From NCBI GenBank assembly GCA_947491935.1, contig CANLLF010000004.1, forward strand, positions 558,001-622,000: DNA of 64,000 nt, in the 5' to 3' direction. The notes under the pieces were generated by a model. That model had not been told where the DNA came from, did no database searches, and was given only the letters and a program-made list of their open reading frames with translations. The position numbers and the translations under genes were made by a program. Below are positions 10,570-36,123 of the stretch, one piece after another (position 1 is the stretch's first letter; the number at the start of each line of letters is the position of its first letter). Source of the DNA: an uncultured Roseicyclus sp. Lineage in GTDB: Bacteria > Pseudomonadota > Alphaproteobacteria > Rhodobacterales > Rhodobacteraceae.

Positions 10570-10593
10570 GTTCACATAGCGAACGATTGTGCG
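10570..10593. promoter_or_regulatory. Candidate IclR operator, site A
   Basis: GTTCACATAGCGAACG (10570–10585), followed by TTGTGCG (10587–10593). It sits in the 195-nt gap between the divergent binding-protein operon and the IclR gene. It matches the motif repeated at five other intergenic sites up to 27 kb, with three differences from the consensus. Control of both directions, including autoregulation of the IclR gene, is inferred. Confidence 0.6.
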
Positions 10594-10739
10594 ATAATTC
10601 ACCCTTCGCTTGAGTTGTGCAAGTATTATTACGAAATCTGCGGATGTAGCGGCGGCGTGTCCTGTGATAGGAAGATGCAAATCAATAAGTTTCCTTCCCG
10701 GTATCGGGGTGGGGCACCAGGTAAATTCAGGGGGATGCC

Positions 10740-11609
10740 ATGGCGAAGCCGCCCGGCACCGCAAACCGCGAAACACCATCAAAGGGCGGTAGCCGCACCG
10801 GTTTGATGACGGCGGCCCCGGATGATATCGACGAGAGCGCTGGCGACACTGCCAATTCGCGAGACTACGTCAGCTCGCTTGCGCGGGGTCTGGACGTGTT
10901 GCGGGCCTTCAATCGCACGCGGCGCAAGATGACCCTGTCGGAGGTGGCCGCGGAGACCGGCAATACCCGGGCCGGCGCGCGCCGGATCCTGTTGACGCTT
11001 GTGCGCGAGGGCTACGCCGTCGCGGATGGCCGCCTGTTCGACCTGACGCCGAAGGTGCTGGAGCTTGGGTTCTCGGTTCTGTCCTCCAAAGGTACCTGGG
11101 ATATTGCGCGTCCGTTCATCGAGCATCTGTCGGAAGAGATCCGCGAAAGCGTATCGGCCGCCGTGCTGGACGAATACAGTGTCGTCTATGTCAGCGGCAC
11201 GCAGTTCCACCGCGTCATCAGCGTGGGTATCACGGTTGGGCGCCGGTTCCCCGCCCATTGCACCGCGACTGGCCGGGTGCTTCTGGCGGCCCTGCCCGAC
11301 GCGCAATGGCCGAACATGCTTGCCTCCATCCAGTTGACGCGCATGAACGAGCGTACGGTGACCGACCGCGATGAGTTTCGGGCGATCCTGGAAGACGTGC
11401 GGGCCAAGGGATGGTCGCTGGTCAATCAGGAATTGGAGATTGGCCTGATGTCGATCGCGGTGCCGGTTGCGCTGTCGTCTGGGGCGATCATCGGTGCCGT
11501 CAATGTCGGCATCCCGACCCTACGTATGACGCCGGAGGGTATGGTTGAGGAGATCCTGCCCAAACTCCAGACCACGGTCGAAAACATCACGCAGGCGCTG
11601 AAGCGCTAA
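10740..11609 (+). CDS. IclR-family transcriptional regulator (PcaR/PcaU/PobR subgroup)
   Basis: A 289-residue regulator with an N-terminal winged helix–turn–helix (about 38–100, containing YVSSLARGLDVLRAF and LSEVAAETGNTRAGARRILL) and a C-terminal effector-binding domain (about 115–285). SLARGL, TRA.ARR.LLTL and LTPKVLELG match the β-ketoadipate-regulator subgroup of IclR proteins. That subgroup is known to bind sites with GTTCG-N5-CGCAC spacing, and the repeated motif in this window has the same form. The ATG at 10740 is preceded by AGGGGG. The gene is transcribed away from the transporter operon and ends 4 nt inside the convergent oxidoreductase gene. The effector is unknown. Confidence 0.9.
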   Translation: MAKPPGTANRETPSKGGSRTGLMTAAPDDIDESAGDTANSRDYVSSLARGLDVLRAFNRTRRKMTLSEVAAETGNTRAGARRILLTLVREGYAVADGRLFDLTPKVLELGFSVLSSKGTWDIARPFIEHLSEEIRESVSAAVLDEYSVVYVSGTQFHRVISVGITVGRRFPAHCTATGRVLLAALPDAQWPNMLASIQLTRMNERTVTDRDEFRAILEDVRAKGWSLVNQELEIGLMSIAVPVALSSGAIIGAVNVGIPTLRMTPEGMVEEILPKLQTTVENITQALKR

Positions 11610-12733
11610 ACCGCGAAGCGGACGGGGGAGAATCGCTCGGAGTCAAACCCGGTCTGAGCGCCAAGAGCGATTGATGCGGCCATCTGCCCGACCATCGGCC
11701 CCAGCGTGTAGCCCGCATCCCCCGGGATCGCCATGACGATGCGCTCTGCGCCGGGCAAAGCCCCTATGACGGAGGCGCCGTCGATGGTGGTGTTCATCCC
11801 GGCCCAAGTCCGGATCACCTTCAGGCCCGAGATAGCGGGCGCAAGCTTTGCTGCCAGCGCCACGTTGCCGAGAAGCGACGCGGGCCGGACCAGCGGCGGC
11901 TGGGTCTGGCCACGATAGGTCGCGGGCCAACCGCCCCCGATCACGATCTGGCCGGATCCGAATTGCTTCAATGTGATGGACCGTTCCGCATGCTGAACGA
12001 GGTGATTGATCGACGGCGCCCCCGGCTCCGTGATGTTCATATGCAGTGGCTCGGCCCGGGTGGGAATGCTCACGCCGAACCCGTCTGCCAAACGGCCTGC
12101 CCCCCAGGCCGCCGCAACGATGACCTGATCGGCCTGCAGCGGTCCCTCTGCCGTGGTTGCTTCCACGCCGCGCGCCGTCAAGGCCAAGCCGTCGACCTTC
12201 CCGGTGATCCGCGCGACTCCGGCAGCTTCGGCCCGGCCGCGCAACAGGCGGTTGGCAAGAAGGGGGTTCAGCTTTCCCTCGTCGCGGCATAATTCAGCCC
12301 CGATGATGTTGGGCCCAAGCCAAGGCGCGATCTGGTCAAGCGCGGTGCGGTCGAGGACCTCAACGGAGAGGCCCTGCGCGGCCTCGCGGTCCGCCTTGTG
12401 TTCAAGAAACGCCAGCTGGTCCGGGGTTTCGGCCAGCATCAAGCCGCCGTTGCGAACCAATTCCACGCCCCCAAGCACCGCGTCCAGCCGCACCCATTCC
12501 TCCGCCGCGGCCCGGTAGAACGGCAACGACGCTTCCACATTGGGCACCTGATCGGGGTAAAGCCGCATGAAGCGGCTTTGCATCTGCACATGCAGCGACC
12601 CCGCATTCGCGTCGGACCCGGCATTCACGCCCGCATCGATCAATGTCACCGAAGCGCCCGCATCCGCCAAGGTGATCGCGGCGAGCGTTCCGGTCACCCC
12701 GCCCCCGATCACGAGCACATCAGCCCTCGCCAT
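11606..12733 (-). CDS. FAD-dependent oxidoreductase (DAO family), small flavoprotein subunit copy 1
   Basis: A 375-residue D-amino-acid-oxidase-fold flavoprotein. The FAD motif VIGGGVTG lies at 7–14, and SDANAGSLHVQMQ follows near 40. ATG at 12733 is chosen over TTG at 12736 because GAGG lies 7 nt upstream. It overlaps the [2Fe-2S]/FAD gene by 14 nt, so the two probably form one enzyme, as in opine oxidase, HcnBC or heteromeric hydroxyproline dehydrogenase. It would oxidise an amine or imino acid and pass electrons on rather than make peroxide. A paralogue with matching segments (NAGSLH, IGGGWP) lies at 19989–21125. Confidence 0.85.
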   Translation of the reverse strand: MARADVLVIGGGVTGTLAAITLADAGASVTLIDAGVNAGSDANAGSLHVQMQSRFMRLYPDQVPNVEASLPFYRAAAEEWVRLDAVLGGVELVRNGGLMLAETPDQLAFLEHKADREAAQGLSVEVLDRTALDQIAPWLGPNIIGAELCRDEGKLNPLLANRLLRGRAEAAGVARITGKVDGLALTARGVEATTAEGPLQADQVIVAAAWGAGRLADGFGVSIPTRAEPLHMNITEPGAPSINHLVQHAERSITLKQFGSGQIVIGGGWPATYRGQTQPPLVRPASLLGNVALAAKLAPAISGLKVIRTWAGMNTTIDGASVIGALPGAERIVMAIPGDAGYTLGPMVGQMAASIALGAQTGFDSERFSPVRFAV

Positions 12734-14384
12734 CAAGCGCCTCTTCCGCCGCGAGGATGCAGGAGATCGCCACCGGCTTGATAGGCACGCGGGGCGCGAA
12801 GAAGCTGAGATCCTCGATGGGTTTGCCGGTGGCCTCTGCCACCATCCGGGCGGCCACCGGCCCGCAATAGCGCCCTTGGCACCGCCCCATGCCGACGCGG
12901 GTGGACCGCTTCAACGTGCCCGCATGGCCGGGTCTGCCCTCCAGACCGCCGCGCAGGTCGCCGATGGTCAGTTCCTCACACCGGCAGACAAGTGTGTCGT
13001 CCGGCATCGTCGCGGCGTTCCTTGGGGCAATGTCATAGAGTGCCCAGAGGCAGGATTGAAACCGGCGATGGCGGGCAAGGGCGCGGCGTGCTGCAAACAG
13101 GTCATAAGCATCGCCATGGCCTGTTGCAGTTGCGGCATGGGCGCCGGCGATGATCCCTTCTTGGCGCGCCGCGGGGGCACCGCCGAGGCCTTTGCAATCC
13201 CCAACAGCGTAAAGCCCCGACACATTGGTGTGCATCGTATCGTCGGTGTGGCAGCGCAGGGTGCCCATCTCCGGATCATAACGCATCTCCGCCCCAAGAA
13301 GGCGCAGGATCTCGTTTTGCGGCTCGAACCCGGAATTCATGCACAGGGCGTCCACGCCGATGGTGTCCTCGACCCCCGCCGCGCTGCGGAACGTGGCAAG
13401 AAGCTCCGATCCACTTTGCGTCACGCCCACCAGCTCGCAGGCATTGCGCATATCGATCCCGCGGCGGCGCAGGGCCAATTCCATCGTCACGCCTTTGGCC
13501 GTCTGGCTCGCGCCGGCGGCGCCCATCTTCAGCGATGCGAAGGGCCGCTTCAAAGGATGCGGAGCCCGTTCCGCAAGGCGCACGATATCGGCCCCGCCCC
13601 GCGCCAGCTCCAGCGCGACCTGGAGGTTGAGCGGCCCCGACCCGCAGACAGCAATCCGTTTGCCTGGCAAGGTACCGTAGCTGCGCCAAAGGGTCTGCGC
13701 CGCGCCGGTTGTCATCACGCCGGGAAGTGTCCAGCCGGGGACCATCACGGGGCGTTCATAGGCGCCGGTGGCCACGATTGCCGTCTTGGGCCGTGCGACG
13801 ATGGCCGTGTCGCCCTGCTGTGCGAGGAAGAGGAGGGGGTCGAAGGCGCCCCACAGCTCAACGCCAGAAAGGATCTCGGCCCCTGAGGCGCGCGCTGCGG
13901 CGAGCAGCTCCGCCCCTTCCTGCTGTTGAGCATCCAATATGGAGCCGTCGGCAGATTGTTTGTAGTATTGCCCGCCCGCAACTTTGCGCTCGTCCAGAAC
14001 CACCACGTCTGCCCCGGCCCGGGCGGCAGTGATGGCAGCCGACAATCCGCCCGCCCCGCCGCCGATCACCAATACGTCGGGTGAGAGATGCTTCGATGCA
14101 GATGACTCGACATGCGCCCCGGAGAATTCCGGGAATGGGGCCTGCTTGGCGACGACCATGCCATTGCGCACGGGCGACATGCAGGCCCGCAGATTTGGCA
14201 TGCCATCGACGCTGACAAGGCATTCCTGACAAACACCCATGCCGCAAAACATGCCGCGATCGGCAGATTTGGCGGTTTCCCGAAATGCGCGGTGGCCTGC
14301 CTCGGTCAGGGCGGCGGCAAGGCTCTGCCCTTCGCGCGCGGTGATCTTGTGCCCGTCGAAGGTGAAGGTGATCTCAGTCATCAT
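12720..14384 (-). CDS. [2Fe-2S]/FAD/NAD-binding dehydrogenase large subunit (HcnAB/OoxA-like fusion)
   Basis: A 554-residue multidomain protein. Residues 1–90 form a ferredoxin-like domain with Cys47, Cys52, Cys55 and Cys68 (CGMGVCQEC...C). A pyridine-nucleotide-disulphide-oxidoreductase domain follows, with FAD motif IGGGAGG near 107–113 and a second dinucleotide motif CGSGPLNLQ. A C-terminal BFD-like [2Fe-2S] domain has VCRCEE and later GRCQGRYC. This fuses what are separate γ and α subunits in some heteromeric hydroxyproline dehydrogenases or in HcnA+HcnB. It overlaps the upstream dehydrogenase gene by 11 nt and the DAO gene by 14 nt, so all three are one operon. The substrate is probably a secondary amine or imino acid. 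Confidence 0.85.
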   Translation of the reverse strand: MMTEITFTFDGHKITAREGQSLAAALTEAGHRAFRETAKSADRGMFCGMGVCQECLVSVDGMPNLRACMSPVRNGMVVAKQAPFPEFSGAHVESSASKHLSPDVLVIGGGAGGLSAAITAARAGADVVVLDERKVAGGQYYKQSADGSILDAQQQEGAELLAAARASGAEILSGVELWGAFDPLLFLAQQGDTAIVARPKTAIVATGAYERPVMVPGWTLPGVMTTGAAQTLWRSYGTLPGKRIAVCGSGPLNLQVALELARGGADIVRLAERAPHPLKRPFASLKMGAAGASQTAKGVTMELALRRRGIDMRNACELVGVTQSGSELLATFRSAAGVEDTIGVDALCMNSGFEPQNEILRLLGAEMRYDPEMGTLRCHTDDTMHTNVSGLYAVGDCKGLGGAPAARQEGIIAGAHAATATGHGDAYDLFAARRALARHRRFQSCLWALYDIAPRNAATMPDDTLVCRCEELTIGDLRGGLEGRPGHAGTLKRSTRVGMGRCQGRYCGPVAARMVAEATGKPIEDLSFFAPRVPIKPVAISCILAAEEALDGEG

Positions 14385-15339
14385 CCGCCTGCGTCATCAA
14401 CCCGTCCCGCGCAGCCACAAGCCGGGCAACGGCCTCCGCGCGCCACGCAACGCGTTTCGGTATGTCCGCCTCGGCCAGGATCTCCCGCCGCGCGGCGGTG
14501 ACCTGCGCCACCAATTCGTCGCTCCAATCGACGTGTTCGCCGCGTCCCTCGCCGATCTGTTTGTAGGCGGGGCCCATCCGGGCGGCATGGGCCGCAATCC
14601 CGCCGGGCGTATTGAGTTCCGCGGTTTCAAACGGGCCGGACAGCGCCCATCGAGGCCCAAGGCCCATGCGCATTACAGCATCAATACCCGCCACATCCGT
14701 GATACCCTCATCCACAAGCCGATAGGCCTCGCGCAGAACCGCGCTTTGCAACCGGTTCAGAACGAAGCCTTCGATTTCCTGCCCCAGCACGATGGCGGCG
14801 AACCCGGCGGCTCCGAACAGAGCTTGCGCCTTGGCAGAAAAGTTCGCGTCTGTGCCGGGTGCGGGCACCAATTCGATCACTCGCAAGACCGAGGGGGGGT
14901 TCACTGGATGAGCCACAAGGCAGCGGCATTGCTGGGCCACGTCCGGCACGATCCGGGACATCGGGATGGCCGAGGATGCGGTAGCGAGTATGGTCTCCGG
15001 CTCGGCTTCCTCCAGAAGTCGCGAGAAGATATCTTGCTTGATCGCCAGATCTTCCGGCCCGCATTCCAGAACCATCACGGCATCCGCCAGATCATTGGTT
15101 GCCTGCGCGGCCACATCTACCCTGCCACGCGCCGTACCTGAGAGGCCTGCGGTCGCGATCACCTGATGTTGATGGGCCAAAGCGCCGGGCACCGAGGCCC
15201 GCCTATCAGCGTCGGGATCAACAAGCGTAACCTGCGCGCCCGCCTCGCAAAACGTCGCCGCGAAGGCCACGCCAATCGAGCCCGCCCCAAGGATGACGAT
15301 CCGCACGCGATTAACGGGAGGTAGCGGTTTTTCTTGCAT
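14374..15339 (-). CDS. 3-hydroxyacyl-CoA dehydrogenase-family NAD-dependent dehydrogenase
   Basis: A 321-residue Rossmann-type dehydrogenase. The NAD motif ILGAGSIG is at about 16–23, the HPVNPP active-site segment sits mid-protein, and the C-terminal helical domain follows. Relatives of this length without a thiolase or hydratase partner include L-carnitine dehydrogenase, L-gulonate 3-dehydrogenase (λ-crystallin) and hydroxybutyryl-CoA dehydrogenase; a free hydroxy acid is the likelier substrate. ATG at 15339 is preferred to TTG at 15375. No clear Shine–Dalgarno lies before it and the operator at 15342–15366 touches it, so a leaderless mRNA is possible. It is the first gene of a three-gene operon. 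Confidence 0.8.
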   Translation of the reverse strand: MQEKPLPPVNRVRIVILGAGSIGVAFAATFCEAGAQVTLVDPDADRRASVPGALAHQHQVIATAGLSGTARGRVDVAAQATNDLADAVMVLECGPEDLAIKQDIFSRLLEEAEPETILATASSAIPMSRIVPDVAQQCRCLVAHPVNPPSVLRVIELVPAPGTDANFSAKAQALFGAAGFAAIVLGQEIEGFVLNRLQSAVLREAYRLVDEGITDVAGIDAVMRMGLGPRWALSGPFETAELNTPGGIAAHAARMGPAYKQIGEGRGEHVDWSDELVAQVTAARREILAEADIPKRVAWRAEAVARLVAARDGLMTQADDD

Positions 15340-15341
15340 GT

Positions 15342-15366
15342 GTTCACATAACGCACAACTGTGCGG
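15342..15366. promoter_or_regulatory. Candidate IclR operator, site B
   Basis: GTTCACATAACGCACA (15342–15357) runs into a perfect inverted repeat CGCACA-AC-TGTGCG (15352–15365). It lies between the divergent dehydrogenase gene (start 15339) and the SDR gene (start 15410), so it can control both. It is one of the best matches to the shared motif. Confidence 0.65.
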
Positions 15367-15409
15367 CCCTAGCAATCGGTAAAGTAAACCCTAGGCGGAG
15401 GGCTGGACG

Positions 15410-16168
15410 ATGACAAAGGATGTCTCACTGAGCGGACGGGTCGCCGTTGTTACGGGGGCCGCGCGGGGCCTTGGCCGCGCCATTGCCAATCGCCTGGCTG
15501 CGGGCGGCGCGACGATCATCGCGGTGGATCGCCCGGCTGCGCTGAGTGATGCACCGGCGGGCTGGCAGGTGGCAGAAATCGATTTGGCGGACGATACCAC
15601 CGACAAGGCCCTGGCGGATTTGGCTCGGACACTGGGGGTCGTGGATATCGTCGTGGCGAATGCCGGTGTGGTGCCGCCATGGCGCGGCATGGACGCGTTG
15701 GACCGGGCGGAATGGGACCGGGTGATGCGCATCAACACGTGGGGTGTCGCGGCGACAATCGGGGCCTTCGCGGAGGCCTTGGAGCAATCCGGGCACGGGT
15801 CCGTTGTGGCCATGGCATCGATCAACGGCTACCGCGCGCATCCCAAGCAGGTCCTCTACACGGCTTCAAAACACGCGGTGATCGGCATCGTGCGCGCCGC
15901 CGCGCTGGACCTCGGGCCGCGCCATATTCGCGTCAACGGCCTGGCCCCCGGCCCGATTGCAACCGACGCCCTGCTGTCGCGTCTTGAGACGCGCCACGCC
16001 CAGGGTGAGCCGCAGCCGGTTGTCGCCCTTCAGGAACTGGCCAACGGATCGGCGCTGGGCCGGCTTGCCACGCCAGAAGACGTCGCCAACGCAGCGCATT
16101 TTCTTGCATCCGATGCCTCGGCAGGGATGACGGGAACGATCTTGCCGGTCGAGGCTGGCCTCACCTAG
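15410..16168 (+). CDS. Short-chain dehydrogenase/reductase
   Basis: A 252-residue classical SDR with VTGAARGLG (15–23), VANAG and the active-site YTASK. It is an NAD(P)-dependent cytoplasmic oxidoreductase of unknown substrate. ATG at 15410 is supported by GGAGGG just upstream. The promoter region contains operator site B. Its stop lies 1 nt from the stop of the convergent TIM-barrel gene, with no terminator between. Confidence 0.85.
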   Translation: MTKDVSLSGRVAVVTGAARGLGRAIANRLAAGGATIIAVDRPAALSDAPAGWQVAEIDLADDTTDKALADLARTLGVVDIVVANAGVVPPWRGMDALDRAEWDRVMRINTWGVAATIGAFAEALEQSGHGSVVAMASINGYRAHPKQVLYTASKHAVIGIVRAAALDLGPRHIRVNGLAPGPIATDALLSRLETRHAQGEPQPVVALQELANGSALGRLATPEDVANAAHFLASDASAGMTGTILPVEAGLT

Positions 16169-16169
16169 G

Positions 16170-17009
16170 TCAGCCGCGTCCCTTCCAGCCATTGGCAGCG
16201 AGGATGTCGTGGCTCGCCTTTATATCCCCGTCCGGGTCCGCGCCGGGGGCCAGGGCGTCGGTGATGATCTCCAGCACCGTCACACCATCATAACCGATGT
16301 CCTGCAAAGCCTGCGCGGACGGCTCGGGATCGACGATGCCGGTGCCAAGACGCTCGTGTTTGAAATCGTCATAGCCTGAATCCGAGATATGCACGTTCTT
16401 CACCAGATCGCCCAACATGCGGATGGCCTCGGCCGGGTCCTCCTTGATGAAGGCGCTGTTGCAGACATCGAAATTCACGCCGACCTCCGGCCCGATCAGG
16501 GCCGCGGTATCGGCGATGTCCTTGGCGGTCGGCAGATATGTGAACGGCACGTTTTCCAGCAGGAGCTGCACGCCGGTTCCCTTGGAATAGGCCAGAAGCT
16601 CCTGCATGCCTTCGACAAACCAGTTGAGCATCCAGTCATGGGGTGGGTTGATCAGGCTGTTCACCGGACCCGGGATCGCCACGACATAGGGGCATTCCCA
16701 TTCCGCGGACAGATCAATCGCCTCCTTGTAGCGGTCGAGCGTGTAGGCCCGCATCAGGCGGTCGACGCCGTTGGGGTTGTTGTCGAGCAGCGGATAGCAA
16801 AAGCTGCTGATCCGGCCGCCTTCCCCGTTCAGCCAGGCCTTATACTCGCGACGGTCCTTCACCGTAAGCTCCCGCGGCCAGCAATGGGGCGGGAAAATCA
16901 TCATCTCATATGTGTCAAACCCCAAAGTTTTCAGATGCTTCAGCGCATCAATGCCGCTGTGCGAATAGAGGAAGGGAAAGGTGCTGGCAGCGACGTCAAG
17001 TTGGGGCAT
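16170..17009 (-). CDS. Sugar phosphate isomerase/epimerase-like TIM-barrel protein
   Basis: A 279-residue xylose-isomerase-like TIM barrel. Likely metal and substrate positions sit at the ends of barrel strands: Glu in LLENVP, Asp in NFDVCNS, His in VHISDS and Glu in VLEIITD. Such proteins isomerise or epimerise sugars or keto acids, or dehydrate inositol derivatives, with a divalent metal. It stands alone on its strand, with operator site C upstream. A role in reshaping the carbon skeleton of the cluster's substrate is inferred only. Confidence 0.8.
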   Translation of the reverse strand: MPQLDVAASTFPFLYSHSGIDALKHLKTLGFDTYEMMIFPPHCWPRELTVKDRREYKAWLNGEGGRISSFCYPLLDNNPNGVDRLMRAYTLDRYKEAIDLSAEWECPYVVAIPGPVNSLINPPHDWMLNWFVEGMQELLAYSKGTGVQLLLENVPFTYLPTAKDIADTAALIGPEVGVNFDVCNSAFIKEDPAEAIRMLGDLVKNVHISDSGYDDFKHERLGTGIVDPEPSAQALQDIGYDGVTVLEIITDALAPGADPDGDIKASHDILAANGWKGRG

Positions 17010-17045
17010 TGTGGGGCTTTCTGCTTGTCAGGGTTACAGGGCCGT

Positions 17046-17069
17046 GTTCAGATAACGCACAAACGTTAC
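17046..17069. promoter_or_regulatory. Candidate IclR operator, site C
   Basis: GTTCAGATAACGCACA (17046–17061), one base off the consensus. It lies in the 128-nt gap between the divergent TIM-barrel (start 17009) and Old Yellow Enzyme (start 17138) genes. Confidence 0.6.
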
Positions 17070-17137
17070 CATACCGCACGCACTATACCGGCAGGGCAAC
17101 GCGGATCAATCGCATTCTCGGAAGGTGTTTTCCGCCC

Positions 17138-18238
17138 ATGACCAGCCAGTTGTTTTCCGAATTCGATCTGGGGGGGCTGCCCCTGCCCAATCGGATCGTG
17201 GTGTCACCAATGTGCCAATACGCGGCGCGTGATGGCGTGCCGGGGCCATGGCACCATGCACATCTGGGGCAGTTCGCGATGTCCGGTCCCGGCCTGATCT
17301 TCGTGGAGGCGACGGGGGTGGAGCCCGAGGGGCGGATCACCCCCGGATGCACTGGGCTCTACGACGACGGGACAGAGGCGGCGTTTGCCGAGATCGTCGG
17401 GTTCATAAAATCGATTGGAGACAGCCGCGTTGGCATTCAGCTGAGCCATTCGGGCCGCAAGGGCAGCACGGTTGCGCCGTGGGAGGGTGGTGGGTTGATC
17501 GAAGGCGACGGCGCATGGATCACCGATGCGCCGTCCGCCGTGGAATACCTGCCCGGCTGGCCTAAGCCGCGGGCGATGGACGATGCGGCGCTGACGCGGG
17601 TGAAGGACGCTTTTGCGGACAGCGCCCGCCGGGCGGCCCGTGCAGGCTTTGATCTGGTGGAAGTGCATGCCGCCCACGGATATCTGCTGCATCAATTCCT
17701 ATCGCCCATCACCAACACTCGGACGGACCAATACGGCGGATCACTTGAAAATCGCATGCGATATCCATTGGAGATTTTCGCCGCTGTGCGGGAAGCGTTC
17801 CCGGCGGATCGTCCGGTGATGCTGCGCCTGTCGGCAACCGACTGGATCGAGGGCGGCTGGGATATGGACAGCTCTGTGACGTTTGCGGCGGCGTTGAAGG
17901 ATCTCGGCTGTGCTGCTGTGGACGTCACATCGGGCGGGCTGGACCAACGACAGGTGATCACCACCGGGCCGGGTTATCAGGTGGGCTTTGCCGAGACGAT
18001 CCGGCGTGAGACAGGCCTGCCGGTCATGGCCGTCGGGCAGATCACCGATCCGGTTCAGGCCGAAACCATCATCGCCACCGGACAGGCCGATCTGGTCGCC
18101 CTGGCGCGGGGCATGTTGTGGGACCCGCGCTGGACCTGGAAGGCGGCGCTAGCCTTGGGCGCAGAAATCTCGCTGCCCGCGCCTTATGCGCGCTGCAACC
18201 CGGCGCTGGCCGCCAAACCCTTCGTCACGAGGAGCTGA
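17138..18238 (+). CDS. NADH:flavin oxidoreductase, Old Yellow Enzyme family (YqjM-like)
   Basis: A 366-residue FMN-dependent ene-reductase-type TIM barrel. SPMCQYAARDG near the N-terminus holds the Cys that tunes the flavin in YqjM-type enzymes. HSGRKGS, the substrate-binding HAAHGYLLHQFLSP and RTDQYGGSLENR segments and the C-terminal phosphate-binding LARGML are also present. It would reduce an activated C=C bond, or act as a dehydrogenase. ATG at 17138 follows an upstream GGAAGG. It is followed 3 nt later by an SDR gene, so the two form an operon under operator site C. Confidence 0.88.
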   Translation: MTSQLFSEFDLGGLPLPNRIVVSPMCQYAARDGVPGPWHHAHLGQFAMSGPGLIFVEATGVEPEGRITPGCTGLYDDGTEAAFAEIVGFIKSIGDSRVGIQLSHSGRKGSTVAPWEGGGLIEGDGAWITDAPSAVEYLPGWPKPRAMDDAALTRVKDAFADSARRAARAGFDLVEVHAAHGYLLHQFLSPITNTRTDQYGGSLENRMRYPLEIFAAVREAFPADRPVMLRLSATDWIEGGWDMDSSVTFAAALKDLGCAAVDVTSGGLDQRQVITTGPGYQVGFAETIRRETGLPVMAVGQITDPVQAETIIATGQADLVALARGMLWDPRWTWKAALALGAEISLPAPYARCNPALAAKPFVTRS

Positions 18239-18241
18239 GCC

Positions 18242-19003: not shown

Positions 19004-19005
19004 GC

Positions 19006-19962: not shown

Positions 19963-19988
19963 GGGGTGATCCTTTGGCGGGTCGGGCA

Positions 19989-21125
19989 ATGAAAACGGCG
20001 GATGTAGTGATCATCGGCGGCGGCATCACCGGGCTGATGACGGCGTGGAACCTGGCCGAGGCCGGGGCCGATGTCGTGTTGCTGGAAGCGGGCGATCTGG
20101 GCGCTCAGGCGTCGGGCGCCAATGCGGGCAGTCTGCATTTGCAGATCCAGTATCCCGAATTCGTCAAATACGGGGCGGATTGGGCGCGCGCCTATGGGCC
20201 GTGCCTCGGGTTCCTGAAACAGTCGCTGGCCCTGTGGCAGGATCTGCCGGGGCGTTCCGGTGTGGATCTGGATGTAAGGCTGGGCGGCGGGATCGTCGTG
20301 GCGCAGGACGATGCGCAGATGGCTCAGATCGAAGCCAAGGCGCGGATCGAAGCCGAGTATGGCGTTGAGACGGAAATGTTGGACCGCGACGCGTTGCGGG
20401 CAATTGCACCATACCTGTCCGACAAAGCCATAGGCGGCGGGTTTTGTGCGATGGAGGGCAAGGCCAATCCGTTGCGCGTGATACCTGCGGTACGGGTGGC
20501 GCTGCAACGGCTCGGCGTGACGGTATTGCGAGAAACACCGGTGACGGCGATCGTTTCGGAAGATGGTGGATACACGGTGATGACGAAAGATCGTGCAGTT
20601 CATGGGCGCCGGGTGGTCAACGCTGCCGGAGCGTCCGCCGGTAAAGTCGCCGCCATGCTTGGCCTGCACATCGAGATTGACGGGTTCCCGCTGCAGGTCA
20701 CGGTGACAGAGCCGGTGGCCCCGCTGATCCCGCATCTGATCTATTCCGCGGCGGGCAAGCTGTCGTTGAAACAGGCTCCGAACGGGGGATGCATCATTGG
20801 CGGGGGGTGGCCGTCTGCCGAAAGACCGGATGGCACCCTTGCGACCGATCCGCAAAGCCTGACCGGCAACATGGCCATCGCGGCGGATGTGGTGCCCCGT
20901 CTGGGCCAGATGCGTGCGTTGCGCAGTTGGACGGCCTGGGTGAACGGCACGCCCGATTGGCGGCCGATCCTTGGCGAAATGCCGGGCCAACCCGGTTTCT
21001 TTCTGGCGCTGTTCCCATGGGTGGGGTTCAGCGCGGCGCCGATGACGGCCAAGGTGGCCGCCGAACTGGTGCTGGGTCAACGCAGCACGGTGTCCCTCAA
21101 GGGAATCTCCGTTCTCGCGGATTGA
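19989..21125 (+). CDS. FAD-dependent oxidoreductase (DAO family), small flavoprotein subunit copy 2
   Basis: A 378-residue DAO-fold flavoprotein with FAD motif VIIGGGITG (6–14). It shares NAGSLH, IGGGWPS and the LSLKQ/ITLKQ region with the 11606–12733 protein, so the two are paralogues. No large [2Fe-2S] subunit gene adjoins it; it could replace copy 1 as partner of the 12720–14384 protein or act alone. ATG at 19989 is chosen over TTG at 19974. The gene lies head to head with the DapA-family gene and tail to tail with gcvPB. Confidence 0.83.
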   Translation: MKTADVVIIGGGITGLMTAWNLAEAGADVVLLEAGDLGAQASGANAGSLHLQIQYPEFVKYGADWARAYGPCLGFLKQSLALWQDLPGRSGVDLDVRLGGGIVVAQDDAQMAQIEAKARIEAEYGVETEMLDRDALRAIAPYLSDKAIGGGFCAMEGKANPLRVIPAVRVALQRLGVTVLRETPVTAIVSEDGGYTVMTKDRAVHGRRVVNAAGASAGKVAAMLGLHIEIDGFPLQVTVTEPVAPLIPHLIYSAAGKLSLKQAPNGGCIIGGGWPSAERPDGTLATDPQSLTGNMAIAADVVPRLGQMRALRSWTAWVNGTPDWRPILGEMPGQPGFFLALFPWVGFSAAPMTAKVAAELVLGQRSTVSLKGISVLAD

Positions 21126-21141
21126 CGCCGGCCTGACCATT

Positions 21142-22704
21142 TCAAGCGACGCCGCGATTGGCCCCGTCACCCTCGGCCTTCTTGCGCTTGTAGGCACGCC
21201 ACGTCATCGCCCATTTCGCAGGGTCCTCGAACACGTCGCCCTTGAGTTGGGACACCGGCTGATTGTGAGGGGCGGATTTGACCATTTCCGGGTCTGTCCG
21301 GGCCTCCTCCACGATCTTGGCCACCACGTCGATCCATAGGTCGATATCTTCCTTCGACCACAGCTCACCGGCTTCCGGTGTGAAGGGCTCCGCTACGATC
21401 CACGGCTCATGGCTCATCCACCATGGATCAATCCCGTAATCGGCCATGCGGTTGGCGAAATCGACGGTGCTGATACCGGTTTCTTCGAACAGCGGGCCAA
21501 GAGACCAACGGGTCATTTCCATGCGATGGGCTTTGATCTCGGGGTTGGAGATTTCCAAACCGGGGATCTTCGACAGGCGCATATCCATGTAATTGTTGGC
21601 GACGACTGAGATGTCCGAGGCCAATTCGATCCCCTCCGCGCCCATGCCTCTTGCCCAGGCATAGGCCTTCACCACTTGGGGGATGTTGCCCCAGTATTCC
21701 CGAACCTTGCCCGCGGATTTAGGGCGATCTTCGTCCAAGATATAGCGGTCCCCATCCTTCACGACGACGGGGCAGGGCAGATACGGGGCGAGCTCGTCCG
21801 AGCATCCGAACGCGCCGACGGCGGGGCCGCCGCCAGCCTTCGGCGCGCCGAAGGTTTTGTGCAGCATGAACATGCAGGCATCGAACCCAAGCTCCCTCGC
21901 GGAGAGTTTGCCCATGACGCCGTTGAAATTCGCATGGTCATAGAAGCAAAGCGCGCCGGCCTCTTTCGCGATGCGGACCCATTCTTTGATCTCCGGGTTG
22001 TAGATACCCATGTCGTCGGGATTGTTGATCATGATCAGGGCGGTCTTGTCGCTGACCGCCGCTTTCAGCGCCTCAAGCGAGGGATATCCATTTTCCTCCA
22101 GCGGCAGGTTCACCACCTTGAATCCGGCGGCGGCGGCCGTCGCCGGGTTGCACGGATGGGCCTGCACGGATGTGACCATCTCGGTGCGCTGCCCCAGCAT
22201 ACCGCGATCGGCCCAATAGGCACGCGCCACGATGGCCATGGTGTAGGCCGCATCCGCCCCGCCACCGGCTTGGAAAATGAACTGATCCATGCCCGACAGC
22301 GAGCGCAGGATGCCATCGAAATCATGGATGATGCTGAGCACCCCCTGCAGGGTATCGGGGTGTTGATAGGGGTGCACCTCGGCCAGTTCGGGCCGCAGGG
22401 TCGCGTATTCGGACGTTTTGGAATTGTACTTCATGGTGCAGGTGCCAAAGAGGCTCACACCCATCATGCCCAACGTCATCTGGCTCAGATGCAGATAATG
22501 GCGCTGCGCCTCGAATTCCGTGATCTCGGGCAGGTCCGGGCGATCCTTGCGCGCCATGGTGGAGGGGATCAGATTGGTGCCGACTGCGTCGGTGACGTCC
22601 GCTTCGGGCGCGGGGAAGATCTGCCCCCGACCACCGGGGCGACCCATTTCCATGACAACGGGTTCGTCCCATTTGGCGGCGTGAAACTCGGGCAGACGGG
22701 TCAT
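21142..22704 (-). CDS. gcvPB: Glycine dehydrogenase (decarboxylating) subunit 2-like, P-protein β half
   Basis: A 520-residue PLP enzyme of the split glycine-cleavage P-protein. PLP Lys283 is in MLHKTFGAPKAGGGP, the glycine-rich loop following it is kept, and the N-terminal GTCTMKYN segment (88–94) matches the family. In the family it decarboxylates glycine together with GcvPA and passes the aminomethyl group to lipoyl-GcvH. Neither gcvH nor gcvT is in this window and several motifs differ (NNPDDMG for TNPNTLG), so another amino acid may be the substrate. The start overlaps the gcvPA stop by 4 nt. Confidence 0.82.
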   Translation of the reverse strand: MTRLPEFHAAKWDEPVVMEMGRPGGRGQIFPAPEADVTDAVGTNLIPSTMARKDRPDLPEITEFEAQRHYLHLSQMTLGMMGVSLFGTCTMKYNSKTSEYATLRPELAEVHPYQHPDTLQGVLSIIHDFDGILRSLSGMDQFIFQAGGGADAAYTMAIVARAYWADRGMLGQRTEMVTSVQAHPCNPATAAAAGFKVVNLPLEENGYPSLEALKAAVSDKTALIMINNPDDMGIYNPEIKEWVRIAKEAGALCFYDHANFNGVMGKLSARELGFDACMFMLHKTFGAPKAGGGPAVGAFGCSDELAPYLPCPVVVKDGDRYILDEDRPKSAGKVREYWGNIPQVVKAYAWARGMGAEGIELASDISVVANNYMDMRLSKIPGLEISNPEIKAHRMEMTRWSLGPLFEETGISTVDFANRMADYGIDPWWMSHEPWIVAEPFTPEAGELWSKEDIDLWIDVVAKIVEEARTDPEMVKSAPHNQPVSQLKGDVFEDPAKWAMTWRAYKRKKAEGDGANRGVA

Positions 22705-24107
22705 TGGAGGATCTCCTTCAACGTATCGGCAAGGCGGCGGATATCAGCGGCGGAATGCATCTCGGTCACGCAGTAAAGCGCGGATTGGCCGAGGTTCAGG
22801 CCCTCGTCCGAGATATCCTTGCCACCAAAGATGCCATGGGCACGCAGGGCGTCGTTGATCTCGGAAACACTCCTGCCCGTCCCATCGAAATTCACCACGA
22901 ATTCCTTGAACTGAGTGTCGGGCCAGACCACACGAACGCCTGGTACGTCGTCCAACAGCTTCGCAGCATAGCGCGCCCGTGACACGATCAGCTGACCCAA
23001 CTCGCGGAAACCTTCGGGGCCAAGCAGGCTCATGTAGACGGCGCCGGCAATCGCCCAAAGATAGGTCGAATTGCCGGTCCAGTCGTTCCCGTCTTCGCGC
23101 ATCCCGTAGGAATTCTGGTGCGGGCAGGCGAGGCCGAAGCCGACCTCCCCCTCGGTCAGCGTCTCCGCGATGGAGACCAGAAAGCCGTTATACGTCCGCA
23201 CGTAGCGTTCTTCGTCGCGCGACGCGATGAAACCGCCCGCGCCACCGCCGCATTGCATATGCACGCCAAGGGGTTGTACCGGGCCGGTCACGATATCCGC
23301 GCCGTAATCTCCCGGCGCTGTCATCACGCCAAGGCTGGCGGGGTCGACCCCCACGATGGTTTCCGCGCCCGCCGCACGGGCGAGTTTTGCGATCCCCGCG
23401 GCCCCCGTTTCGATTGTCCCGAGATAGGTCGGGTTTTCAAAATAGACGGCCGCCACATCGTCACCGAGCTTGGATTTCAGATCGCCCAGATCCAGTCTGC
23501 CGGAGGTGGGATCAGCAGCGACAAGGACAACCTCGAGGCTGCCCTCCATCTCGCTCGGCTGGCAATAGGTGCGGATCACCGACAGGCGCTCAGGGTCGGA
23601 CAACTGCGGCACCACCACCTTGGACCGGCCCGTTATCCGCGCCGCCATTCGCATCGCATGCCCAATTGCGCAGCCCCAGGAATAGACCGGCAATTGCACG
23701 ACATCGAGGTTCAGCAGTGCGCCCAGTTGCGATGAAAACTCGAACCAGGCCTGATTGCGGCCATGGTCGGACTGGTAGCTGCCCCAGACGTTGGTGGCGA
23801 ATTCGGTGCGCCCGACGATCTCATCCACAATGGCGGGCACGTGGTGCTGCCAGACGCCAGCGCCGAGGAAGCTGAGGTTGGCCTCGCAATCTTCGTTGCG
23901 CTTCAGCCGCGTGACAAGATCGCGGCGCAGTTCCATCTCGGAGGTCAGGGCCGGGGGCAGATCCAGCGGTGCCTTGCGAAAATGGTCGTCCGGGATCTGC
24001 TCGAACACATCGGCGACGGAGGACGCGCCGATCTCGGCCAGCATCGCATCGATCGCGCCGGGGGCGGATAGGGCCATCCAAGGGTGTGATCTGGTATCGG
24101 TGGGCAT
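22701..24107 (-). CDS. gcvPA: Glycine dehydrogenase (decarboxylating) subunit 1-like, P-protein α half
   Basis: A 468-residue partner of GcvPB. SFLGAGVWQHHVPAIV matches the family's FLGAG..H..P motif, and NPTYLGTIE follows. The canonical YTPYQPE..QG and MYDG regions are replaced by GSYQSDHGRNQ and VYSWG, so this is a divergent member. It lies under operator site D and may also be read through from the acoX-type gene upstream. The family assignment is good; glycine as the substrate is not certain. Confidence 0.8.
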   Translation of the reverse strand: MPTDTRSHPWMALSAPGAIDAMLAEIGASSVADVFEQIPDDHFRKAPLDLPPALTSEMELRRDLVTRLKRNEDCEANLSFLGAGVWQHHVPAIVDEIVGRTEFATNVWGSYQSDHGRNQAWFEFSSQLGALLNLDVVQLPVYSWGCAIGHAMRMAARITGRSKVVVPQLSDPERLSVIRTYCQPSEMEGSLEVVLVAADPTSGRLDLGDLKSKLGDDVAAVYFENPTYLGTIETGAAGIAKLARAAGAETIVGVDPASLGVMTAPGDYGADIVTGPVQPLGVHMQCGGGAGGFIASRDEERYVRTYNGFLVSIAETLTEGEVGFGLACPHQNSYGMREDGNDWTGNSTYLWAIAGAVYMSLLGPEGFRELGQLIVSRARYAAKLLDDVPGVRVVWPDTQFKEFVVNFDGTGRSVSEINDALRAHGIFGGKDISDEGLNLGQSALYCVTEMHSAADIRRLADTLKEILQ

Positions 24108-24186
24108 CAGCGGGCCTCCTCATATCCGTGCCGGTCGTGTGCTGCGGCAGAGTTGATTCTGATATTTGCGCAAGAATTGCACAAAA

Positions 24187-24205
24187 GTTCGCATAACGCA
24201 CACAT
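24187..24205. promoter_or_regulatory. Candidate IclR operator, site D
   Basis: GTTCGCATAACGCACA (24187–24202) matches the consensus fully. A further half-site, TTGCACA (24177–24183), stands just upstream with the same spacing as at site F. It lies 80 nt before the gcvPA start, between gcvPA and the acoX-type gene on the same strand. Confidence 0.65.
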
Positions 24206-24209
24206 CGAT

Positions 24210-25319
24210 TCAGCCTGCGGACAGACGCATCATGGTTTCTCGTCCGCGCCCGGTACGAACGCGCAGGTAGCCCGACAATTCCGCGTCCAGATCAGGCTCA
24301 CCGCTATCGACCCAGAGTGTGGGCTGTGCGAGGCGGGCGAGTTTGTCTTCCGACGCCAGCACGATGAGGCCGTCCTTCCCCGCGCGGCGCAGGGTATCGG
24401 GGCCGATCTGCTGGTTCCCGCGCCCGATCAGAAACCCCTGCTGTCCCGTTACCCCCAAGATGATCCTGACCGGTCGTTGACCCGCAAGCGCGATAAGCTC
24501 CGTCGCGCCCAGATCGCGCCCGACTACCGCGCCGTCGCGCATCGCATCGGTGCCCAGGATCGTCGGCGCGTGTCCGGCGGCGCGCATCACGGCGCCCGCG
24601 CTTGTTCCGGGGCCGATCACGTAGAGCGTTCCCGGCTCCATCTCCGCCACGATCTGTGTAGCAGCGGCGGACAGTGCCGTGCCCCAATCCACCCGCGGTC
24701 CACCTTTGGACGCCTGCATCCGGTTGCGCAGAATTGGCACGCGGGCGTGGCCGTAGAGTTTCGGCGCGATGTGGCCGGCACGAAGCGCAGCCTCGTCGAT
24801 ATCCATGACTTCGGCGTCATCAGTCCAGCTGATCCGGTCGGGTGCAGCCACGATGTCGGCGATCAGGGCGCCGGCCGCTTCCGGGGAGATCGCAAAGACG
24901 CCGGAGTGCATTTTGACACCGCAGGGAATCCCGAGGATCGCCTGGTTTGGCGCGATGTCGGCGCAGACGTCGCGGGCCGTTCCGTCCCCCCCCGCAAAGA
25001 CGATCAGGTTGCAATCGGCCATCTGTGCAACCGCGGCCCGCGTGTCCCGCGCCGATCCGGTGAGCGGCATCGGGCGGATGTCGAGATCAAGATTGAGACC
25101 CTCGGCCACATCTGCCCCAAGGACCCCGGGGGCGAGGGTGATCTTGGTTCCGGGCAGCCGGTCCGCAAGGCGCTGCAGGGCACGACGTGCCCGCGTGCCG
25201 GATTGCGGGGCGGCCCCACGCGCGAGGGCGTCGGCGACGATGCCCGGGCCATCCGTGCCTTTCAGCCCGACACGTCCACCAAGGCCCGCAATCGGGTTCA
25301 CGATCAGTCCGATCCGCAC
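24210..25319 (-). CDS. AcoX-type ATP-NAD kinase-like protein
   Basis: A 369-residue protein of the NAD-kinase/diacylglycerol-kinase superfamily. VRIGLIVNPIAGLGG at the N-terminus and VFAGGDGTARDV in the nucleotide-binding region are typical. GTG at 25319 is chosen because the reading begins exactly as other family members do and AGGAGG lies upstream; TTG at 25343 would place that site inside the gene. AcoX-type proteins occur in acetoin and other catabolic clusters, with no proven reaction. NADP supply or phosphorylation of a small molecule is possible. It lies divergently to the aldo-keto reductase fusion gene and upstream of gcvPA. Confidence 0.8.
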   Translation of the reverse strand: MRIGLIVNPIAGLGGRVGLKGTDGPGIVADALARGAAPQSGTRARRALQRLADRLPGTKITLAPGVLGADVAEGLNLDLDIRPMPLTGSARDTRAAVAQMADCNLIVFAGGDGTARDVCADIAPNQAILGIPCGVKMHSGVFAISPEAAGALIADIVAAPDRISWTDDAEVMDIDEAALRAGHIAPKLYGHARVPILRNRMQASKGGPRVDWGTALSAAATQIVAEMEPGTLYVIGPGTSAGAVMRAAGHAPTILGTDAMRDGAVVGRDLGATELIALAGQRPVRIILGVTGQQGFLIGRGNQQIGPDTLRRAGKDGLIVLASEDKLARLAQPTLWVDSGEPDLDAELSGYLRVRTGRGRETMMRLSAG

Positions 25320-25359
25320 GGTGTTTTTTTCCTCCTGCCGCAATCCCGCTTGCAGCTCT

Positions 25360-25388
25360 GTTCATTATCCGCACACTTGTGCGCGAAT
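25360..25388. promoter_or_regulatory. Candidate IclR operator, site E
   Basis: GTTCATTATCCGCACA (25360–25375) followed by a perfect inverted repeat CGCACA-CT-TGTGCG (25370–25383). It lies in the 80-nt gap between the divergent acoX-type gene (start 25319) and the AKR–RidA gene (start 25400), ending only 11 nt before the latter start. Confidence 0.6.
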
Positions 25389-25399
25389 TGGAGAGTGCC

Positions 25400-26890
25400 A
25401 TGAGTGTGATGCCAGAGAAAGCCACCATCGGGCGAAACGTCCCCTTGCGCCGTCTTGTCACCGGCCTGTGGCAGATGGCCGATCAGGAGCGGGACGGGAA
25501 GCCGTTCGATCTGGACACCGCTGCAGAGGCACTGGTGGGGTATGCGCGTGACGGGTTCGACAGCTTTGATATGGCGGACCATTACGGCAGCGCTGAGATC
25601 GTGGCCGGCATGGCGCACAAGGCGCTGCGTGAGGCGGGGGAGGCCCCGCCGACGATCCTGACGAAATGGTGCCCGGAGCCCGGCGCGATGGATTTGGCCA
25701 CCGTCCGGGCAGGCGTTGAAACCGCGCTGCAACGGCTTGACCTGCCGGTTGTCGATGTCATGCAATTTCATTGGTGGCGGTACGAGCAGCCGGAATATCT
25801 GGAGGCACTCAATAACCTCATGCGGCTGCGGGAGGAGGGGTTGATCCGCGAGATCGGGTTGACGAATTTCGATGCCGCACATCTGCATCTCGCGCTGAGT
25901 GAAGGAGTCGACATCGCCTCGAACCAGGTGTGTTTCTCGCTATTGGATCGACGGGCCGCCGGTGCGATGAGCGAGGTGGCCCGTGCGAAAGGCGTTGCCA
26001 TCCTGGCGTTCGGCACACTCTGCGGTGGGTTTCTGTCGGACAAGTGGTTGGGTCAGGATGAACCAGCCGAGATCCCCGATTGGAGCCGGATGAAGTACAA
26101 GCGGTTCATTGATGCAAACGGGGGCTGGACGCGGTTTCAGGCGCTTCTGGCGACGCTGGGCGAGGTTGCGGGCAAACACGACGTGTCGATCAGCAACGTC
26201 GCCACCGCATGGGCGTTGAGCCACCCGGCCATCACCGCCACGATCATCGGAGCGCGCCTGGGGGAAGGGCAGCACCGGCAGGACAACAAGCGCGCACTGG
26301 ACCTTGCACTGGATGCCGATGACCGGGCCGAAATTGCCGCCGTGCTGAATGAGATGGAAACGATCCCAGGCGATTGCGGGGACGAGTATCGAAAGCCGCC
26401 CTTCCTGACGGCGTCAGGAGATCTGAGCCACCATCTGGATGCCCTGCCGCCCGTCTTTCCCATTGTGGAGAGTGCCGTGCGTCCGGGACGGGTGCGGGCC
26501 GACAGCGGATCGATCTGGGAAGAGAAGGCCGGGTTTGCCCGCGCAATCCGTAGCGGGGACCGCGTTCTTGTCAGCGGAACCACCGCCACTGGGCCGGATG
26601 GAAACGCAATCGGGCAGGGCGATGCCGCGGCGCAAGCCACCTACATTCTGGACAAGATTTCCGCGTCTCTGGACGCGCTCGGCGGTACGCTTGAGGATGT
26701 GGTGCGCACCCGGATCTACCTGCGAAACGAGGCGGATTGGGAAGCGGTCTCGGCCATCCATGCCCGCTATTTCGGAGCGGTTCGGCCAGCGAACACGTTG
26801 ATCGCGGGGGTCGCACTGATCGGCGGTTACGACGTGGAAATCGAAGCAGAAGCCGACGTTGCAGATCGCGCGGGGCAAGCCGGGGATTGA
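25400..26890 (+). CDS. Aldo-keto reductase fused to a RidA-like domain
   Basis: A 496-residue two-domain protein. Residues 1 to about 335 are an aldo-keto reductase with the full tetrad Asp57, Tyr62 (DMADHYG), Lys89 (ILTKW) and His124 (MQFHW). Residues about 370–490 are a Rid/YjgF domain (VSGTTATGPDGN, DVVRTRIYL, DVEIEAEADV). In E. coli RidA the substrate-binding Arg105 sits in PARSCVEV; here the matching segment reads RPANTLIAG, so that Arg is replaced. Rid proteins without it are not known to be imine deaminases. ATG at 25400 follows GGAGAG. One chain could pair carbonyl reduction with handling of an unstable enamine or imine. Confidence 0.85.
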   Translation: MSVMPEKATIGRNVPLRRLVTGLWQMADQERDGKPFDLDTAAEALVGYARDGFDSFDMADHYGSAEIVAGMAHKALREAGEAPPTILTKWCPEPGAMDLATVRAGVETALQRLDLPVVDVMQFHWWRYEQPEYLEALNNLMRLREEGLIREIGLTNFDAAHLHLALSEGVDIASNQVCFSLLDRRAAGAMSEVARAKGVAILAFGTLCGGFLSDKWLGQDEPAEIPDWSRMKYKRFIDANGGWTRFQALLATLGEVAGKHDVSISNVATAWALSHPAITATIIGARLGEGQHRQDNKRALDLALDADDRAEIAAVLNEMETIPGDCGDEYRKPPFLTASGDLSHHLDALPPVFPIVESAVRPGRVRADSGSIWEEKAGFARAIRSGDRVLVSGTTATGPDGNAIGQGDAAAQATYILDKISASLDALGGTLEDVVRTRIYLRNEADWEAVSAIHARYFGAVRPANTLIAGVALIGGYDVEIEAEADVADRAGQAGD

Positions 26891-26914
26891 CAGAATCCCA
26901 AAGCGACGTCCATC

Positions 26915-26947
26915 TTACGCACGAAAGTTCGCAATGCGCACAAGAAC
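26915..26947. promoter_or_regulatory. Candidate IclR operator, site F
   Basis: GTTCGCAATGCGCACA (26927–26942), preceded by a half-site ACGCACG (26917–26923) and followed by AGAAC. It lies 65 nt before the amino-acid-binding protein gene, in the 121-nt gap after the AKR–RidA gene. Confidence 0.6.
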
Positions 26948-27821: not shown

Positions 27822-27835
27822 TCCACCCTTTGCTG

Positions 27836-27867
27836 CGCCCCGTCGAGCCCGCCGGTTCGGCGGGGCG
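27836..27867 (+). other. Competing hairpins between binding-protein and permease genes
   Basis: CCCGCCG (27848–27854) and CGGCGGG (27858–27864) form a 7-bp stem with a 3-nt loop. Alternatively CGCCCCG (27836–27842) can pair with CGGGGCG (27861–27867). It lies 15 nt after the binding-protein stop with no strong T-run, fitting mRNA protection or partial attenuation. Confidence 0.5.
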
Positions 27868-27887
27868 TTCAGGTGCCCGGACCATAC

Positions 27888-33607: not shown

Positions 33608-33650
33608 GGCAGGTCCTCCCCTGGGCGTGCGATTGAAGGAAAGCGTAGCA

Positions 33651-33684
33651 TGATCGGGGCGGATGTCTGCCACCGCCCCGATCA
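33651..33684 (-). other. 12-bp perfect hairpin between frcB and frcC
   Basis: TGATCGGGGCGG (33651–33662) and CCGCCCCGATCA (33673–33684) form a perfect 12-bp stem with a 10-nt loop. It lies 18 nt after the frcB stop and before the frcC ribosome site. With no T-run it probably stabilises the frcB part of the mRNA or attenuates frcCA. Confidence 0.65.
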
Positions 33685-33702
33685 AATGTCATATCGCGGG
33701 TG

Positions 33703-36085: not shown

Positions 36086-36123
36086 GCCGTTGCGTTTTGG
36101 CCCGTTTGCCGGTGGATTTCGAG

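Follow-up and report, generated by a model that had tools for sequence, protein, structure and literature searches.

We examined a stretch of 64,000 nucleotides (hereafter the window) from an uncultured Roseicyclus sp., in which a block of 28 genes at positions 992-31698 includes the gene of an IclR-family regulator. This block is very probably one multi-operon regulon under its own IclR regulator, which would recognise a three- or four-box operator at six promoters serving 26 of the 28 genes. The architecture of the operator, the confinement of its exact matches to the block, its recurrence at orthologous promoters and its co-occurrence with one clade of regulators were all observed in the sequences, from which we infer the operons and the binding of the regulator protein to these predicted sites. 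A previous sequence-only reading of the window had placed about 28 genes under one regulator; 992-31698 does hold 28 genes and a conserved multi-operon regulon, but the six sites cover 26 of them.

A three-box operator at six promoters

The sequence-only reading listed six similar sequences at 10570, 15342, 17046, 24187, 25360 and 26927, and all of them are present there. Each is intergenic once start codons are set by sequence (site 15342 lies within the longest possible frame of the 3-hydroxyacyl-CoA-dehydrogenase-like (3HCDH-like) gene, yet upstream of that gene's ATG at 15339), and four of the six (10570, 15342, 17046 and 25360) stand between divergent genes, as that reading had it. Four bases past the palindrome we found a third half-site, alternating in direction and absent from the earlier description, and the full operator word is GTKCR-N5-YGMAC-N4-GTKCR, of three boxes (Table 1). 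The third box lies to the right at 10570, 15342 and 25360 and to the left, in minus-strand reading, at 24187 and 26927. Three of the five exact three-box sites extend to a fourth box, the extended match then carrying one mismatch. At site 17046 the third box (GTTAC) accounts for both mismatches, and a two-mismatch match on the other strand overlaps the site.

The specificity of the operator depends on the third box. In the genome, exact matches to the two-box word GTTCR-N5-CGMAC numbered 53, compared with 39 for a reversed-pattern control (palindromic places being counted on both strands), and the 15-mer consensus, with two mismatches allowed, had 14 matches in the window against 12.2 ± 3.3 expected from shuffles, which is not significant. 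On these counts the two-box 15-mer was discarded as a marker of the regulon across the genome. In contrast, the three-box word matched exactly five times in the 4,654,583-base genome, in every case at one of the six block sites. Allowing one mismatch raised the genome total to 36, compared with 20 in the control; eight of the 36 are inside the block and 28 outside, and the latter are mostly background, since 28 compares with 20. The genome scan that the sequence-only reading had called for, here run in pattern form, tells against the two-box word, which is unspecific, but does not contradict the three-box operator, whose exact matches are confined to the block. That the six sites are a chance similarity picked by eye would fit the unspecific 15-mer, but this explanation is already contradicted by the third box, by the genome-wide confinement of exact matches and by phylogenetic conservation (see below), and we give it almost no credence.

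Two further exact two-box words, at 26780 and 28140 of the window, lie inside the AKR-RidA and permease coding sequences without an exact third box, and are probably chance occurrences. Elsewhere, at G000:C1:245236-246641 (loci L007 and L224), two one-mismatch three-box matches stand 1.4 kb apart (245236 and 246618) in the vicinity of a glutamine-synthetase-like gene and the gene of a solute-binding protein (SBP). These could be a distant member of the regulon, the sites of another regulator, or chance. The pair was not added to the regulon because both are one-mismatch matches, a class whose 28 cases beyond the block compare with 20 control matches.

Excerpts of PMC8222616 describe three-box IclR motifs of the GTNCG-N5-6-CGNAC type for PcaU, PobR and HmgR and predict three-box motifs for 32 orthologous groups; the block operator is therefore of a known kind. 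All six sites combine such a palindrome with an alternating third box, site 17046 only through its degenerate third box. The regulon itself would be a new member of that kind, although an orthologous regulog may stand in the supplementary tables of that paper. The likeness that the sequence-only reading saw between GTTCG-N5-CGCAC and the PcaR site bears up, as the palindromic core has the same form as the consensus in those excerpts. The block nevertheless differs from the PcaR system of Pseudomonas putida, since its operators have a third box and no pca targets were recognised in it.

Conservation of the operator in relatives

The genome collection was scanned with an alignment of five orthologous regulators, and the best 80 of 418 candidate loci were retained. 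Cluster genes stood beside the regulator in 43 of the 80 (tblastn), mostly from Roseobacter-type alphaproteobacteria by record titles, and 37 were without the cluster. Culturable relatives such as Jannaschia seohaensis and Pseudotabrizicola algicola are among the carriers. In the 43 cluster loci (783 kb), the three-box word in its five- and four-base spacing had 72 exact matches, as opposed to 10 for all 35 other spacing combinations (0-6 each) and none for the reversed pattern.

Individual promoters gave a consistent picture. The operator at the SBP-iclR promoter was exact in 31 of 37 related loci and within one mismatch in 36, and that at the 3HCDH-SDR promoter (SDR, short-chain dehydrogenase/reductase) was exact in 27 of 34 and within one mismatch in all 34. 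Random 320-bp stretches from the same loci, operators included, contained a match in 67 (exact), 87 (up to one mismatch) and 151 (up to two) of 2150 cases. At the promoter between the TIM-barrel gene and the old-yellow-enzyme (OYE) gene, 5 of 20 loci (window included) had an exact match, 7 one with up to one mismatch and all 20 one with up to two; the GTTAC third box recurs in relatives. We further scanned 400 bases upstream of GcvPA, AKR-RidA and SBP3, the binding protein of the amino-acid-type transporter, in 29 genomes reached through the loci, which at the cut-offs used hold these genes in 27, 23 and 18 cases, respectively. A site with up to one mismatch preceded GcvPA in 13 of 27 loci, including 13 of the 14 whose GcvPA is at least 81% identical, and SBP3 in 14 of 18.

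The cluster is patchily distributed. Only 15 of 119 other sampled genomes of the window's family have a regulator match at E ≤ 1e-40; in the four best of these (54-75% identity) cluster genes adjoin the regulator, and the other 11 have 35-43% identity.

The regulator

The block regulator carries an N-terminal HTH_IclR domain (PF09339) and a C-terminal IclR_C domain (PF01614), as expected of the IclR family. Its TIGR02431 score of 301.9 bits, against a cut-off of 284.75, confirms the proposed placement in the PcaR/PcaU/PobR subgroup; the five aligned orthologues all match the same model, the comparison of score with cut-off having been made for the window protein. Phylogenetically, the cluster regulators (44 rows, window included) fall on one side of a branch with support of 95/94, although the joining of the Rhizobiaceae rows L101 and L103 to the other 42 is less sure because of their long branches. 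One regulator, from a record titled Enemella evansiae TN21-6 (an actinobacterium; L097), nests inside Roseobacter-type sequences, and this record is likely mislabelled or contaminated.

Base 5 of the operator differs with the recognition helix: regulators with NTRAGARR are paired with A in 16 cases and G in 3, whereas those with MSRATARR are paired with G in 8 of 8, and 7 of the 37 regulators gave no match to the helix pattern. At the level of sequence, this difference agrees with direct recognition. The operators might instead belong to another IclR-family protein of this genome, in keeping with the exact matches found in loci that lack the cluster and were fetched by other regulators of the family (see below). 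However, no second protein of the genome matches the block regulator at E ≤ 1e-40, and the site stands at the cluster iclR itself in nearly every related locus (36 of 37, with up to one mismatch), so that we consider another IclR protein improbable.

The subfamily also raises the prospect of an ordinary aromatic (beta-ketoadipate-type) regulon. Membership in TIGR02431 would favour it, as would the TGT-11-ACA motif type, the class proposed for the operator, which excerpts of PMC8222616 give as enriched for aromatic metabolism. Yet Pfam scans of 27 of the 28 block proteins revealed no ring-cleavage dioxygenase and no recognisable protocatechuate or beta-ketoadipate enzyme. For this reason we place the regulator in the subfamily by sequence without filing it as a regulator of the beta-ketoadipate pathway, and we regard an aromatic regulon as very improbable. 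The block system does resemble PcaU and PobR of Acinetobacter baylyi, in that its regulator passes TIGR02431 and, according to the same excerpts, in a GTNCG-N5-CGNAC palindrome with an external direct repeat of the half-site; the block differs in its six promoters, its 28 genes and the lack of a recognised beta-ketoadipate gene among the proteins scanned.

Extent of the regulon and mode of action

The block is bounded on the left by a tRNA-Met gene (809-885) and on the right by a convergent transporter gene (31737-32549). Under the operon structure deduced here, Operator 1 would serve nine genes leftward as well as iclR, and the regulator would thereby control its own gene from the SBP-iclR operator. 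Operator 2 would serve three genes in one direction and one in the other, Operator 3 one and two, Operator 4 two genes, Operator 5 one gene each way and Operator 6 five. The remaining two genes, for the second DHDPS-family protein (dihydrodipicolinate-synthase family; DHDPS2) and the second DAO-family oxidoreductase, diverge across a 26-bp gap, and neither lies downstream of any site; they may be transcribed by read-through from their neighbours or may stand outside the regulon.

Several observations weigh against a single, specific regulon of this extent. The gap between DHDPS2 and the second DAO gene has no three-box match in the window with up to three mismatches, and in relatives a match is present in 0 of 18 loci with up to one mismatch and 1 of 18 with up to two. 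None of the 13 distant relatives has a site with up to one mismatch directly before GcvPA, although in two distant genomes (L215 and L217) a site precedes the NAD-kinase-like gene that itself precedes GcvPA. Just 10 of 23 AKR loci have such a site, three of them with the site more than 200 bases away. Beyond the regions scanned, the 68 GcvPA, AKR and SBP3 loci comprise another 260 kb, in which 16 exact matches and 32 of one mismatch at most occur, some of them belonging to promoters of adjacent cluster genes. Exact three-box matches also number 15 in the 37 cluster-free loci, and eight of these precede the matched regulator by no more than 200 bases; the word is therefore not unique to the block regulator. 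Moreover, the difference between helix and operator base follows the tree and is confounded by descent. Finally, the related loci are not independent: the 43 include many that are closely related to one another, and L060 is almost a copy of the window.

The regulon, as delimited by the operators, may also not correspond to one linear pathway. Separate modules (CUT1/opine oxidase, GcvPA/GcvPB, the amino-acid-type ABC transporter and aconitase X (AcnX)) might have been gathered under one regulator because they break down different portions of a single complex substrate, or else several substrates that occur together. Consistent with such a gathering, in genome G002 a distance of about 11 kb containing other open frames separates the SBP3-AKR module from the rest, GcvPA is missing from 2 and SBP3 from 11 of the 29 genomes at the cut-offs used, and AcnX is near the SBP3 operon in just 2 of the 12 stretches that hold it. 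On the other hand, the same operator stands before these modules in most close relatives, even where SBP3 is apart (L212 and L213). We hold a regulon of separate modules to be a distinct possibility.

As for the mode of action, the divergent gaps at 15340-15409 and 25320-25399 measure 70 and 80 bp, and the 24-bp operator takes up about a third of each. The operator must overlap the core promoter there, which makes repression likelier at these two promoters. A substrate or intermediate acting as inducer would release it, and repression relieved by an inducer is, judging from position, the most likely mode at these two tight divergent promoters. PobR and PcaU differ in this respect, being called activators in the title of a work cited in the excerpts of PMC8222616, and the sign of regulation may for that reason differ by promoter.

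Gene content of the block and its surroundings

Table 1. Genes of the block and predicted operators. Positions are those of the window.
Feature	Position	Strand	Family evidence or context
Aldehyde dehydrogenase, left end of operon	992-2464	-	PF00171
Class-III (omega) aminotransferase	2461-3840	-	PF00202; closest solved chains 3fcr, 3gju
SDR dehydrogenase a	3837-4529	-	PF00106
SDR dehydrogenase b	4529-5314	-	PF13561
DHDPS-family lyase/dehydratase 1 (DHDPS1)	5345-6262	-	PF00701
CUT1 ABC ATPase	6287-7402	-	PF00005, TOBE_2
CUT1 ABC permease 2	7406-8233	-	PF00528
CUT1 ABC permease 1	8233-9129	-	PF00528
CUT1 ABC solute-binding protein	9207-10544	-	PF01547
Operator 1	10570-10593	+	Exact three-box; between CUT1 solute-binding protein (-) and iclR (+)
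IclR-family regulator, PcaR/PcaU/PobR subfamily	10740-11609	+	PF01614, PF09339; TIGR02431
DAO-family FAD subunit	11606-12736	-	PF01266
2Fe-2S/FAD subunit	12720-14384	-	PF13510, PF07992, SO_alpha_A3; best solved relative 1y56_A
3HCDH-like dehydrogenase	14374-15339	-	PF02737; start set from sequence
Operator 2	15342-15365	+	Exact three-box; between 3HCDH-like (-) and SDR c (+)
SDR dehydrogenase c	15410-16168	+	PF13561
Xylose-isomerase-like TIM barrel (epimerase/isomerase type)	16170-17009	-	PF01261
Operator 3	17046-17079	.	Two overlapping three-box matches with common degenerate box GTTAC; between TIM-barrel isomerase (-) and OYE (+)
OYE-family flavin reductase	17138-18238	+	PF00724 (scanned with longer start); start set from sequence
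SDR dehydrogenase d	18242-19003	+	PF13561
DHDPS-family lyase/dehydratase 2 (DHDPS2), no operator of its own	19006-19962	-	PF00701; start set from sequence
Second DAO-family FAD oxidoreductase, no operator of its own	19989-21125	+	PF01266, 206 bits
Diverged GcvPB-like subunit	21142-22704	-	NF003346 above cut-off; HKTF motif
GcvPA-like subunit	22701-24107	-	NF001696 above cut-off
Operator 4	24168-24201	-	Exact three-box 24178-24201, fourth box with one mismatch; upstream of GcvPA-GcvPB (-)
ATP-NAD-kinase-like protein	24210-25319	-	PF01513, PF20143; start set from sequence
Operator 5	25351-25383	+	Exact three-box 25360-25383, weak fourth box; between NAD-kinase-like (-) and AKR-RidA (+)
Aldo-keto reductase fused to RidA domain (AKR-RidA)	25400-26890	+	PF00248, PF01042; start set from sequence
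Operator 6	26908-26941	-	Exact three-box 26918-26941, fourth box with one mismatch; upstream of amino-acid-type ABC operon (+)
Amino-acid-type ABC transporter	27012-29966	+	Binding protein 27012-27821, PF00497; permeases 27873-28565 and 28532-29278, PF00528
Amino-acid-type ABC ATPase	29154-29966	+	Frame by tblastn conservation in relatives; outside the Pfam scan
Aconitase-X enzyme (AcnX; cis-3-hydroxy-L-proline dehydratase type), last gene of operon	30022-31698	+	NF051439, 874.8 against cut-off 700

The 3HCDH-like protein comes near PRK06129 but stays under its cut-off (316.1 against 347). A 412-aa frame at 19959-21197 on the minus strand was rejected as a gene; it has no family and antisense-looking letters, and the plus strand encodes a clear DAO-family protein, which makes it a shadow frame. 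A long antisense frame opposite the second DAO gene was extracted from 18 related loci as well.

Outside the regulon, positions 31737-37263 hold a sugar-type ABC transporter, a ROK-family regulator and an acetate-kinase-family gene. Further on, 39677-44969 looks like another small catabolic cluster, with an NMT1-type ABC transporter, an arylmalonate-decarboxylase-family gene and an M24 creatinase/prolidase-type peptidase.

A split glycine-decarboxylase paralogue and a loosely attached aconitase X

GcvPA and GcvPB of the block both pass NCBIfam equivalog cut-offs, and GcvPB keeps the HKTF motif, whose lysine we take to be the one that binds pyridoxal phosphate (PLP). In this the split pair resembles the glycine cleavage P-protein. 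It differs as an extra paralogue with an altered loop, the canonical fused GcvP and the sole GcvH match of the genome adjoining each other outside the block. The loop of the cluster-type GcvPB reads HKTFGAPK(A/G)GGGPAVGA, compared with HKTFCIPHGGGGPGMGP in the canonical GcvP, and all the cluster-type copies that a motif search recovered from the fetched loci have PK(A/G)GGGPAVGA in place of PHGGGGPGMGP.

The sequence-only reading had drawn the limit of the pathway at AcnX, a proposal that the relatives do not clearly bear out. Among 16 stretches fetched, 12 hold the SBP3 operon, and the two with AcnX beside it have AcnX upstream of the SBP3 transporter rather than downstream. AcnX is loosely attached to the block and outside its conserved core.

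Pathway and substrate

The gene set suggests that the block encodes the uptake and oxidative breakdown of a small nitrogen-containing metabolite. Two ABC importers would bring in the substrate or substrates, and the enzymes would comprise opine-oxidase-type and DAO-family flavoenzymes, four SDRs, an OYE-type reductase, two DHDPS-type lyases, an omega-aminotransferase, an aldehyde dehydrogenase and the split glycine-decarboxylase paralogue. The DAO-family subunit adjoins the 2Fe-2S/FAD subunit, a pair that we take to be of the type of the opine oxidases OoxAB and the dye-linked L-proline dehydrogenase PH1363-PH1364. The best solved match of the 2Fe-2S/FAD subunit, presumably of this opine-oxidase/dye-linked proline-dehydrogenase type itself, is the PH1363 chain 1y56_A (E 2.8e-24). 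The likeness is distant, however, and the gene neighbours in the block are different.

An N-substituted amino acid or an amino-cyclitol would be our guess for the substrate. Searches of solved structures with the 2Fe-2S subunit, the NAD-kinase-like protein, DHDPS1, the aminotransferase, the TIM barrel and the CUT1 binding protein pointed to no specific substrate. On chemical grounds alone, one concrete candidate is a mycosporine-like amino acid. Such compounds are cyclohexenones carrying an N-substituted glycine, a structure that would offer natural steps for an opine-type oxidase, an OYE reductase and a glycine-decarboxylase-like enzyme. Among the literature matches listed, none on the degradation of mycosporine-like amino acids, on GcvPA/GcvPB with IclR or Roseobacter, or on IclR regulons in Rhodobacterales describes this cluster, and a search for opine oxidase together with OYE and glycine cleavage gave no match.

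Hydroxyproline degradation, to which AcnX, DHDPS, DAO and aldehyde dehydrogenase could belong, is not favoured as the whole answer, because AcnX stands outside the conserved core and the hydroxyproline degradation pathway has no known place for the SDR, OYE and GcvP genes. We tentatively put forward as possible an undescribed pathway that would act on an amino-acid compound, cyclic or N-substituted, and would be spread across Roseobacter-type bacteria as well as some other alphaproteobacteria; in it the split glycine-decarboxylase paralogue would be repurposed for a new PLP step.

Overall, the conserved operators mark off a bounded set of genes, open to test, that probably encodes a catabolic pathway. 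They turn a generic list of oxidoreductases into a definite question, namely which compound induces these 26 genes, and the regulon draws attention to a split glycine-decarboxylase paralogue whose altered active-site loop is conserved.

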